Shown: positions 31,868-35,195 of the stretch, in pieces
Layout: every line of letters starts with the position of its first letter
Numbering within the stretch: the stretch's first letter is position 1
Origin: Chloroflexota bacterium
GTDB lineage: Bacteria > Chloroflexota > Limnocylindria > P2-11E
Assembly: GCA_027310565.1 (NCBI GenBank)
Contig: DAIDAP010000036.1
Span: forward strand, 26,896-90,895
Length of the DNA stretch: 64,000 nt
Reading direction: 5' to 3'
Position numbers and translations under genes: made by a program
The notes under the pieces: generated by a model
Told to the model about the DNA's origin: nothing
What the model saw: the letters and a program-made list of their open reading frames with translations, nothing else
Database searches by the model: none

Positions 31868-32853
31868 CTCCGCTGGCGGCGGTCGCGGCCGCCGCGGCGC
31901 CCCCGACGGCGCTTGCGCCGGGCTCCGTCCTCGCCGACGGGGGTGGGGCGCTCCATGCGCGGCACCTCGTCGCCGCCGTAGGAGCCGACGCCGCGCGTGT
32001 GCGCGCCGACGCGCGAGAACTCGACGCCGAGCTCTTGCGCGGTGATCTCCGCCCGTCCGCCGGTCGCGAGCTCCACGACCACGGCCTCCTTCACGACGTT
32101 GGTGCCCTGGGTCACGGCGCAGCCGCTCGTGCCGCACTGTCCGCCCTGGCAGGAGGGGATGTGGAACACCTCGCCGACCTTCGGGAGCTTCCCCTTGACC
32201 TCCTGGTAGGTCTCGAGCTCGTAGATGAGGCAGCACTTGAGACGCCCGCACACGCCGGTGAGCTTGGCCTGGTTGAGCGGCAGGTCCTGCTCCTTCGCCA
32301 TGCGGATCGATATGTTCGAGAACTTGTCGAGCCAGCTCGAGCAGCAGAGCTCGCGCCCGCACGTCCCCACGCCGGTCATCACCTTCGTCTCGTCGCGCGC
32401 TCCCAGACGGCGAAGCTCGATGCGCGTGCCGAACCGTGCCGCGAACGCGTCGGTGAGCTCGGCGAGGTTGAGCCGGTCCTCGCTCTGCTGCGAGTAGAAG
32501 ACCGTGAGCGCGGTGCCGTCGAACTGCCAGTCGCAGCCGAGCACCTTCAGCGGGAGCCCGCGCTCGCGCACCATCCCCGCCGCCGTGACCGCGGCCTCGG
32601 CCTCCATCCGCTTGCGTCTGTTGATCTCGAGCACGTCCGACGCGGTCGCCTTGCGCTCGACGACGCCGAGCGGCATGTCGACCTGCACGAGCGGCGAGTC
32701 GGTGGGGAGGATCTGGATCCGGGCGGCGTCGAGGCCGACCTCGGTGCGCACTATGACCCACTGGTTGATCGTGAAGTCGCCGATCTGACCGGGCTCGAAG
32801 AAGTACATGCGGCCTGCCTTCGCGAAGCGGACGCCGACGACCGTGCGCATCAT
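31864..32853 (-). CDS. PSP1-domain protein (RicT/YaaT family)
   Basis: VGVRFAKAGRMYFFEPG, GVGTCGRELCCSSWL, MAKEQDLPLNQAKLTGVCGRLKCCLIYE. Confidence 0.95.
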   Translation of the reverse strand: MMRTVVGVRFAKAGRMYFFEPGQIGDFTINQWVIVRTEVGLDAARIQILPTDSPLVQVDMPLGVVERKATASDVLEINRRKRMEAEAAVTAAGMVRERGLPLKVLGCDWQFDGTALTVFYSQQSEDRLNLAELTDAFAARFGTRIELRRLGARDETKVMTGVGTCGRELCCSSWLDKFSNISIRMAKEQDLPLNQAKLTGVCGRLKCCLIYELETYQEVKGKLPKVGEVFHIPSCQGGQCGTSGCAVTQGTNVVKEAVVVELATGGRAEITAQELGVEFSRVGAHTRGVGSYGGDEVPRMERPTPVGEDGARRKRRRGRRGGRDRRQRS

Positions 32854-33887
32854 GCGGCGGCCGCCAGGTCCGCGCGGTAGGGGAGCCGCAGCGCGAGCAG
32901 CTCCAGCAGCATGCGCGCGCTCACCGTCGTCTCGACGACGTCGCGCCGCCAGCGTTCGAACGCCTGCGCGAGGTCGACCAGCTCGCGTCCGCCGGTGCTG
33001 GCGGCGAGCTTCGCCGACTCGGCCGCGCGCTCGGGGCGCACGGCCCGCTCGGGCGCTCCCGCCGCGACGAAGGCGGCGTCGCGCAGCAGCTCGCCCCATT
33101 CGACGAGGCGGGTCTCGATCTGCGCGCTGCGCTTCTGCGTGTCGGTGCGCGACTCGGCGAGGTCGGCGGCCCACGCGAAGCGGTCGGTGAGCCGGCTGGC
33201 CACGAGCGTGTAGAACTCGCGCTCGAGCGCCCGCCGCGCCTCGCGCTCGGCCTCGTCGATCGCCAGCCGGATCGCGACACCCGGCTTCCCGGCGGCCGCC
33301 GCCGCGTAGCGCGCGGCGTCGGGGCCCAACCGCGCGACGAGCGCCGCCTCGATCTCGGCGCGCGGCACGGGGCGGAACGGGATCGGCTGCACGCGCGAGC
33401 GGATCGTGTCGAGGAGCCGCGAGGGCGTGGGGGTCACCAGGAGGAGACACGCGTGCGCCGGCGGCTCCTCGAGCGTCTTGAGCAGCGCCGTCTCGGCGTG
33501 CTCGGAGAGGTCGGCCGCGTCGTCGATGATCACGACGCGGGTGCGGCCCTCGAGCGGGCGCAGCGCGAGATCCTGCTGCATCGCGCGGACCTGCTCGATG
33601 CTGATGTTCTTGCGGTCGTCGCGCGTGCCGCTGTCCACCAGGCGCGTCACCTCGCGGACGTCCGGATGCAGGCCGCGCTCGATCTTCCGGCAGGCGACGC
33701 ATGCGCCGCAGCCGCCGCTCACGCGCGGCTCGCGATCGCAGTTGAGCGTCTGCGCGAGCCGGATCGCGACGGTGTGCTTGCCGATCGAGCGCGGTCCGCT
33801 GAGCTCGTACGCATGGGCAACGTCGCCACGGACCGCCTGGTCCCCGAGCCTGTCGAGGAGGCGACGCTGCCCGATGACATCTCGCAT
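32850..33887 (-). CDS. holB: DNA polymerase III subunit delta'
   Basis: VIGQRRLLDRL, GPRSIGKHTVA, CGACVACRKIERGLHPD, VVIIDDAADLSEHAETALLKTLEEPPA. Confidence 0.93.
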   Translation of the reverse strand: MRDVIGQRRLLDRLGDQAVRGDVAHAYELSGPRSIGKHTVAIRLAQTLNCDREPRVSGGCGACVACRKIERGLHPDVREVTRLVDSGTRDDRKNISIEQVRAMQQDLALRPLEGRTRVVIIDDAADLSEHAETALLKTLEEPPAHACLLLVTPTPSRLLDTIRSRVQPIPFRPVPRAEIEAALVARLGPDAARYAAAAAGKPGVAIRLAIDEAEREARRALEREFYTLVASRLTDRFAWAADLAESRTDTQKRSAQIETRLVEWGELLRDAAFVAAGAPERAVRPERAAESAKLAASTGGRELVDLAQAFERWRRDVVETTVSARMLLELLALRLPYRADLAAAA

Positions 33888-33913
33888 CGGGTCAGGGCGA
33901 TTCTATGCTCTCG

Positions 33914-33994
33914 CTAGCAGCAGGGCTCGTCGCTCTGCGGCGGGCAGCAGACGGGTGAGGGACAGCACGGCTGCGGGCAGCACGGCTCGCTCAT
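33914..33994 (-). CDS. 26-aa Cys/Pro-rich small protein MSEPCCPQPCCPSPVCCPPQSDEPCC
   Basis: Verified codon by codon; GAAAGGAGG Shine-Dalgarno 5 nt before ATG; ATG 14 nt after arsR stop. Confidence 0.75.
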   Translation of the reverse strand: MSEPCCPQPCCPSPVCCPPQSDEPCC

Positions 33995-34008
33995 CGGGGC
34001 CTCCTTTC

Positions 34009-34353
34009 TCAGCGCAGCGCGTCGACCAGACGCCGGATGTGCGCCGGGAGATGCGGCGTGAGACGGTAGTACGTCCAGATGCCGCGGCGCGTCGCCTCCA
34101 CCAGCCCGGCGTCGCGGAGCTTCCCGATGTGGTGCGAGATGGTCCCCTGCGTGAGGCCGAACGTCGCGGTGAAGTCGCAGACGCACGCCGGCTCGGTCGC
34201 CTCGCGCAGCGCGAGGACGATCTGCAGCCGCGTCGGATCGGCGAGCGCCCGGAGGACGGCCGCGAGCTCGCCGGCGCGCTCCGCGGGCAACTCGGGCTCG
34301 AGCGCGCAGCACACGCCACGCTCACGGTCCGGAAGGATCCGCGCCGCGCTCAT
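34009..34353 (-). CDS. arsR: ArsR-family arsenic-responsive regulator
   Basis: LRALADPTRLQIVLALREATEPACVCDFTATFGLTQGTISHHIGKLRDAGLV; divergent from arsM. Confidence 0.92.
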   Translation of the reverse strand: MSAARILPDRERGVCCALEPELPAERAGELAAVLRALADPTRLQIVLALREATEPACVCDFTATFGLTQGTISHHIGKLRDAGLVEATRRGIWTYYRLTPHLPAHIRRLVDALR

Positions 34354-34373
34354 CGCGGCGATCGTAGCAGACC

Positions 34374-34391
34374 CATTGACGACTATCAATG
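34374..34391. promoter_or_regulatory. Candidate ArsR operator CATTGA-CGACTA-TCAATG
   Basis: Perfect 6-6-6 inverted repeat between divergent arsR and arsM. Confidence 0.75.
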
Positions 34392-34442
34392 CGTTGTGGG
34401 AGCATGTGGCGGGCGCCGCCGGCGGCGCGCGGGAGGACGAAG

Positions 34443-35195
34443 ATGAGCGAACTCCAGGAGGCGGTGCGCGCGAGGTACGCCGAGCGCGCGCTGCGGATGG
34501 CGAAGACACCGGGGAGCTGTTGCGACGACGCGGGCTCGACCCGCGACGCCTACAGCGGCGAGGAGCTCGCGAGCGTCGGCCTCGGTCCCGCCGCGAGCCT
34601 CGGCTGCGGGAACCCGACCCTGCTCGCCGACCTCCGTCCCGGTGAGCGCGTGCTGGATCTGGGGTCCGGCGCGGGCGTCGACGTGCTGCTCTCCGCGCGC
34701 CGCGTGTCGCCCGGCGGGCACGCCTACGGCGTGGACATGACCGACGAGATGCTCGCGGTCGCGCGCGAGCACCAGCGCCGCGCGGGCATCGCGAACGCGT
34801 CGTTCCACAAGGGCACGATCGAGGCGCTGCCGCTCGACGACGCGAGCGTCGACGTCGTCATCTCGAACTGCGTCATCAACCTCGCGGCCGACAAGCGGGC
34901 GGTGCTCCGCGAGGCGTTCCGGGTGCTCCGGGATGGCGGACGCCTCGCGGTCGCCGACATGGTGGCGCTCGAGGAGCTGGCGCCGGCGGCGAAGCGGCGC
35001 CTCGACCTGTGGGCCGGCTGCGTCGCCGGGACGATCACGGTGGAGGAGTACGCCGCCGCGCTGCGTGAGGTCGGCTTCACGGACGTCGCGATCGAGGTGA
35101 CGCGCGAGGTCACGCTCGACGGCGTCGCCGGACGGATCGCGAGCGCCTACCTGAGGGCCCGCAAGCCGTCGCGGGACGTGACCGCCGCGGCGTAG
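34443..35195 (+). CDS. arsM: Arsenite S-adenosylmethionine methyltransferase
   Basis: LDLGSGAGVDVLLSARRV, YGVDMTDEML; conserved Cys sites GSCC, SLGCGNP, SNCVIN, WAGCVAG. Confidence 0.93.
   Translation: MSELQEAVRARYAERALRMAKTPGSCCDDAGSTRDAYSGEELASVGLGPAASLGCGNPTLLADLRPGERVLDLGSGAGVDVLLSARRVSPGGHAYGVDMTDEMLAVAREHQRRAGIANASFHKGTIEALPLDDASVDVVISNCVINLAADKRAVLREAFRVLRDGGRLAVADMVALEELAPAAKRRLDLWAGCVAGTITVEEYAAALREVGFTDVAIEVTREVTLDGVAGRIASAYLRARKPSRDVTAAA

Follow-up and report, generated by a model that had tools for sequence, protein, structure and literature searches.

A conserved cysteine-pair micropeptide gene associated with arsR and arsM in a family of Chloroflexota

Directly behind an arsR gene of a Chloroflexota bacterium lies a very short reading frame rich in cysteine and proline codons. 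The question is whether this is a gene and, if so, what its product might do in an arsenic locus. We examined it within a stretch of 64,000 nucleotides, referred to here as the window, and compared it with related genomes. The features discussed below are listed in Table 1.

Table 1. Features of the arsR-arsM region, with positions in the 64-kb window
Feature	Position	Strand	Basis or remark
holB-like DNA polymerase III delta' subunit	32850..33887	-	named from sequence; downstream neighbour, conserved in relatives
TAGAAT, -10-like box	33900..33905	-	12 nt 5' of holB ATG
CC/Pro micropeptide gene MSEPCCPQPCCPSPVCCPPQSDEPCC	33914..33994	-	ORF reading, homologues and purifying selection
Shine-Dalgarno sequence GAAAGGAGG	34000..34008	-	5 nt 5' of peptide ATG
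arsR, 114 aa, ArsR/SmtB metalloregulator	34009..34353	-	NF033788, E 1e-25
sigma-70-type promoter of arsR-peptide, TTGATA-17-TACGAT	34361..34389	-	1 found vs 0.1 expected
probable ArsR operator CATTGACGACTATCAATG	34374..34391		palindrome shared by related loci
arsM, arsenite S-adenosylmethionine methyltransferase, 250 aa	34443..35195	+	NF008823; divergent from arsR

The reading frame is as the original prediction had described it: 26 aa followed by a stop codon, with 8 Cys arranged as four CC pairs (31% of the residues) and 8 Pro, so that in small size and clustered cysteines it is of the metallothionein type. Both the strong Shine-Dalgarno sequence and the distance of 14 nt from the ArsR stop codon (34009-34011) were found as claimed, and the identities given to arsR and arsM agree with their family matches. 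The further statement that the peptide lies opposite arsM is correct only in that arsM is divergent from arsR; arsM is located about 450 bp away, beyond arsR, and does not overlap the peptide gene.

We then asked how often such an ORF occurs, using as definition a length of 15–75 aa, a Shine-Dalgarno sequence, at least 5 Cys, at least 15% Cys and at least one CC pair. The micropeptide ORF, which is too short for standard gene finders, is the only one of this kind in the window, and 40 simulated 64-kb windows with matched trinucleotide make-up contained none. The peptide had no match in Pfam or NCBIfam at E ≤ 1, eight related or similar peptides gave no relevant match there at E ≤ 5, a profile search of the PDB with the peptide returned nothing, and a prior description was not found in the open-licence literature. 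A reading as RiPP precursor was also considered; no maturation enzyme was recognised among the neighbours (whose names were inferred from sequence).

The same peptide is encoded in eight genomes belonging to three genera of one Chloroflexota family, always adjoining arsM or arsR. Besides the window genome these are G005, G008, G013, G016, G023, G024 (on two contigs) and G027. The genes measure 75–84 nt including the stop codon, and an AAGGAGG-type site is found 5' of the homologues as well. Their sequences (MNEPCCPAPCCPAPDCCPPDEAPCC, MNEPCSPEPCCPYPDCCPPDHEPCC, MSAANEPCCPEPCCPDPECCPPGEEPCC, MNEPCCPTQCCPTPDCCPPDEAPCC, MNEPCCPAPCCPAPECCPPDEEPCC and the more divergent MIGPCCPPQPACPEDCCPPEEPCC and MSGSCCPIPVECCPEPESDQPCC) give the consensus MNEPCCPxPCCPxPxCCPPxxEPCC, in which the Cys pairs, the Pro spacing and the CC at the C-terminus are conserved; the four CC pairs are kept save for single losses. 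We therefore define here a family of ars-associated CCP peptides (EPCCPxPCCP...CCPP...PCC-end, Shine-Dalgarno sequence, arsR or arsM as neighbour), to which the window peptide belongs. G024 carries two arsM-peptide-holB segments (L183 and L193); since they lie on separate contigs, two strains or species have probably been binned together.

The distribution is narrow. The pattern CCPxPxCCP occurred at 7 places in 28 family genomes, compared with 0 for a reversed-pattern control, and a profile search of 177 genomes of the class hit 8 places in 7 genomes, every one beside arsM. Among 399 sampled genomes of the phylum, good matches were limited to the family of the window. A pattern scan of the genome collection gave at least 120 matches, mostly chance occurrences or Pro-rich proteins, and only three of the matches listed were genuine, namely those in the family genomes G008, G024 and G027.

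Within the family the gene is frequently lost. It is missing from three of the four congeners checked, these three having kept arsR-arsM and the order holB, arsR, arsM, glycosyltransferase, and from 10 of the 18 family genomes that carry arsM. The peptide is thus not essential. At the site of gacgagccc-tgctgctag in the window, one congener (L012) reads gacgaaccc-a-tgctgctga, possibly the decayed end of the peptide gene. A reading of no conservation at all had come from DNA behind arsR only, and was overturned by a scan of the whole cassette. The expectation that relatives retaining arsR-arsM would also retain the peptide therefore holds in part: the gene is lost in the genomes just mentioned, but it is present with its Shine-Dalgarno sequence and Cys pairs in seven genomes, which belong to two other genera.

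Such losses and the very short length would be consistent with an ORF that arose by chance or reflects a feature of the RNA, and that has no function as a peptide gene. We compared the codons of the six homologues of the same length. Pairwise differences numbered 24 at the first, 35 at the second and 143 at the third codon position, and 102 of 162 codon differences were synonymous, giving a pN/pS of 0.17, a value that is indicative since the pairs are not independent. The two peptide copies of G024 differ by synonymous changes only. These numbers indicate that the gene evolves under amino-acid constraint, and the synonymous bias together with the conserved Shine-Dalgarno sequence makes it very likely that the peptide is translated. 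Conservation, ribosome binding site and synonymous bias across three genera, together with the empty simulated windows, leave hardly any room for a non-functional ORF, and the comparison supports a genuine Shine-Dalgarno-led coding gene tied to arsR and arsM.

The placement of the gene within the cassette varies: it lies 3' of arsR in the window, 3' of arsM in most relatives and 5' of arsM in G008. In all homologues except G008 the start codon of the peptide gene touches the arsM stop codon or overlaps it, with a GGAG-type site 5' of the start. Counting the window, holB follows the peptide gene in seven of the eight genomes; the main difference of the window is thus that arsR-arsM has been inverted beside a peptide gene that stayed at holB. 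We do not regard holB as part of the arsenic unit. The TAGAAT box in front of it is conserved in relatives whether or not they have the peptide. This suggests that holB is transcribed from a leaderless promoter of its own and makes the peptide unlike a holB leader.

These observations bear on the idea that the ORF is a cysteine-responsive leader, in which ribosome stalling at the Cys codons tunes a neighbouring gene while the peptide itself is irrelevant. The ORF is short and rich in Cys codons, and polycysteine uORF attenuators have a precedent in Mycobacterium (Canestrari 2020, as cited in PMC9031893). However, the peptide gene usually comes last, after arsM or arsR, and stands 5' of arsM only once; holB follows at a distance of 26 nt and has its own box. 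The RNA structure is not unusual (folding z = 0.35), the peptide strand has no terminator, and the start is led by a strong Shine-Dalgarno sequence rather than being leaderless. Moreover, Pro, Glu and the spacing are kept at the amino-acid level, and synonymous changes are preferred. A leader function therefore appears very improbable to us.

How would the peptide be regulated? In 19 of 22 related loci the 18-bp palindrome (CATTGAC-n-TCAATG) adjoins arsR, and it lies in the arsR-arsM interval when the locus has both genes; 891 kb of unrelated DNA contained 3 matches. The palindrome is the probable ArsR operator. The -35 box of the arsR-peptide promoter falls inside it, and arsR and the peptide gene are probably co-transcribed in the window. 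The ArsR protein contains Cys15-Cys16 (as GVCC) and Cys57-Val-Cys59. Its nearest solved structure is CgArsR (6j0e) of C. glutamicum, whose site consists of Cys15, Cys16 and Cys55 (PMC11868830). Cys15-Cys16 of the N-terminal site of this CgArsR-type (type 3) sensor are aligned and present in the window protein, whereas Cys57 and Cys59 lie 2–6 residues from the aligned Cys55 and, as CVC, resemble the R773 type-1 site. Taken together, operator, promoter and ArsR cysteines suggest that the peptide is probably under ArsR control in both arrangements, via arsR in the window and via arsM in the relatives; by its position, the operator would have this effect in nearly every arrangement.

Control by ArsR could also run in the other direction, with the peptide competing for As(III) and thereby setting the induction threshold or resetting repression, while contributing little to detoxification directly. 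In the window the peptide gene comes second, after arsR, on the same transcript, and ArsR likewise senses through Cys pairs. In most relatives, however, the peptide gene is co-transcribed with arsM and divergent from arsR; no stoichiometry with ArsR is preserved, and we consider such a feedback role improbable.

The second gene of the cassette, arsM, scores 282 bits against an NF008823 cut-off of 263. Comparison with the structures 4kw7/4fr0 aligned three of its cysteines (LGCGN, ISNCV, WAGCV) with the catalytic positions of the algal CmArsM. Its last 30 residues contain no Cys; its N-terminus has one CC, where the congeners show CC...CC...C. In the ArsM proteins of one genus (L018, L020, L021, L023), about 85 inserted residues (VTGSLGLACDL...LVAAERVCCGTANWALHDDGAELRVTV...) separate the N-terminal helix from the CC motif; Pfam and NCBIfam gave no match for this insertion. 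Neither arsA nor arsB was seen adjoining the peptide at the window locus. Of the 28 family genomes, 27, the window genome (97.5% complete) among them, have no arsenite efflux pump of Acr3 type, the one pump family searched for, and positive control genomes confirm that the search works. Sequestration plus methylation is thus a plausible strategy, and an arsenic-methylating cell apparently devoid of Acr3 would gain from a thiol buffer.

Many ArsM proteins have cysteines of their own at the C-terminus. A Cys-rich tail was found in 45 of 148 Chloroflexota ArsM proteins, about one third (L194 and many loci in L204-L328), often ending in ...GCGCGSGGCC or ...CCGGGGCC and also in ...SGCGCGSGGCC. This raises the possibility that the peptide is a dedicated ArsM partner, an in-trans form of the tail that docks As(III) or takes MAs(III). 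Three observations fit: the contact of peptide start and arsM stop in most homologues, the ArsM of the same-family genome G017, which does without the peptide and ends in ...PPEESCC, and the ArsM proteins linked to CCP peptides, none of which has a Cys in the last 30 residues. Across loci, however, complementarity of Cys-rich tails and free micro-ORFs was unsupported (Fisher p=1), Cys-rich micro-ORFs occur without arsM, and the window peptide is joined to arsR. We therefore regard a dedicated partnership as rather unlikely.

The micro-ORFs in question emerged from a survey of 140 Chloroflexota arsM loci for Shine-Dalgarno-led Cys-rich ORFs. Nine were located within 400 bp of arsR or arsM (261 kb) and one elsewhere (322 kb; p=0.004), an enrichment that is partly due to related species. 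A tenth candidate (L275) proved to be an in-frame internal start within an ArsM tail; with it included, the near count was 10 and p was 0.002. In one other family, two loci encode MRNNDGCCDGNCDCAGGACC and MRTMRHDDGCCDGGCDCGPGCC in a similar place, divergent from arsR, and MDCTCPCCDGCNCDPTCCS and MPELPIIAADCCEEECCEGGSCASGCC are further Chloroflexota examples. L013 has a different Cys-rich ORF of 31 aa (1304-1381) directly behind the arsR operator and 5' of arsM within its operon. L028 (1966-2043) and L029 (1978-2055), from genomes in which arsM was not found, have different Cys-rich ORFs of 40–44 aa directly behind the same arsR operator. In G019 and G021, of the same family as the window, arsM was not found, and a different Cys-rich micro-ORF follows the same operator. 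These other micro-ORFs may be unrelated genes. Two such ORFs near arsR or arsM turned up in 125 loci from Actinomycetota, Myxococcota and a mixed-phylum set, one from Myxococcales and one a Chloroflexota case already counted, so the feature is concentrated in Chloroflexota. The Actinomycetota sample also contained many weaker ArsM-family matches with one in-frame TGA, which may be selenocysteine forms or neighbouring genes.

In our opinion the micropeptide is probably, though by no means certainly, an ArsR-induced, metallothionein-like cytoplasmic buffer or carrier of trivalent arsenic. On entry of As(III), ArsR would be released from the operator between arsR and arsM, so that methyltransferase and peptide would both be made, the latter together with arsR in the window and with arsM in the relatives. 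The four vicinal Cys pairs, separated by Pro in what would be a flexible peptide, would then bind trivalent arsenic. As As(III) takes three thiol ligands and MAs(III) two (PMC11868830), the peptide might accommodate about two As(III), each held by three thiolates, or as many as four MAs(III), each held by two. Bound arsenic would be kept off cellular thiols until it is methylated by ArsM, hand-over to ArsM being the least certain step of this scheme. Many soft metals are bound by Cys-rich peptides, and the arsenic specificity of this one therefore rests on gene context.

The original prediction had proposed a metallothionein-like arsenic chaperone, buffer or ArsM substrate donor. A conserved Cys-pair gene tied to arsR and arsM supports this proposal in part, with the donor role as only one of the options. 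Delivery to ArsM is possible, but we prefer a buffer to an obligate donor because the window peptide is joined to arsR and not to arsM, and because many ArsM-bearing relatives do without it. A stand-alone buffer is likewise favoured by the Cys-rich micro-ORFs at the same regulated position in loci that lack arsM.

More tentatively, we put forward that Chloroflexota, and possibly further bacteria that lack arsenite efflux, possess a class of overlooked ArsR-controlled arsenic-thiol carriers of 18–45 residues ("arsenothioneins"). Such carriers might bind As(III) or MAs(III) and either supply ArsM or shield it. They may have arisen repeatedly, some as free peptides and others as Cys-rich tails of ArsM, and been missed because they fall below the length limits of gene callers. 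If the micropeptide itself acts as we propose, standard annotation would be seen to hide functional genes of 20–30 codons in metal-resistance loci, and biosensors or remediation could draw on the peptide as a minimal natural scaffold that binds arsenic.

The principle behind such a function is familiar from metallothionein-like and chaperone-like proteins; the peptide sequence itself is without known relative, and we infer its arsenic binding from composition and context. The metallothioneins SmtA/BmtA and MymT are small, Cys-rich, metal-inducible cytoplasmic buffers, often under a repressor of the ArsR/SmtB family. The micropeptide is likewise small, Cys-rich and encoded next to such a repressor, but it consists of CC pairs and Pro within 26 aa, whereas metallothioneins use CxC/CxxC plus His; its locus is arsenic-specific and it stands outside the metallothionein families of Pfam and NCBIfam. 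Pro-spaced CC pairs are also a feature of the engineered tetracysteine tag CCPGCC, which binds biarsenical dyes. The tag is a designed hexapeptide, while the spacing in the micropeptide is CC-PxP-CC and CC-PxPx-CC.

ArsD, which carries As(III) via the vicinal pairs Cys12-13, 112-113 and 119-120 (PMC12607644), is similar in being an ars-unit product with vicinal Cys pairs. It differs in being folded and longer (about 120 aa) and in handing its arsenic to the ArsA ATPase, and our family search found no ArsD homology in the micropeptide. The mycobacterial polycysteine leader ORFs are, according to PMC9031893, short and leaderless, with runs of Cys codons, and lie 5' of the controlled gene; the micropeptide gene is Shine-Dalgarno-led and mostly terminal in its transcript, and has neither an attenuator-like structure nor a terminator on its strand. 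The Cys-rich ArsM tails share with it the CC end, the link to ArsM and the phylum, but they are Gly-rich and part of the enzyme chain, whereas the micropeptide is free-standing and Pro-rich. Finally, QueF and QueE of Lysinibacillus are intracellular As(III) binders under ArsR control that raise tolerance (PMC12093948). They are enzymes encoded outside the ars operon, in contrast to a dedicated Cys-pair micropeptide inside it. The same 2025 paper states that a sequestration gene within ars operons is unknown so far (PMC12093948), and a conserved ArsR-controlled Cys-pair micropeptide in bacteria apparently devoid of Acr3, if it acts as we propose, would fill this gap.
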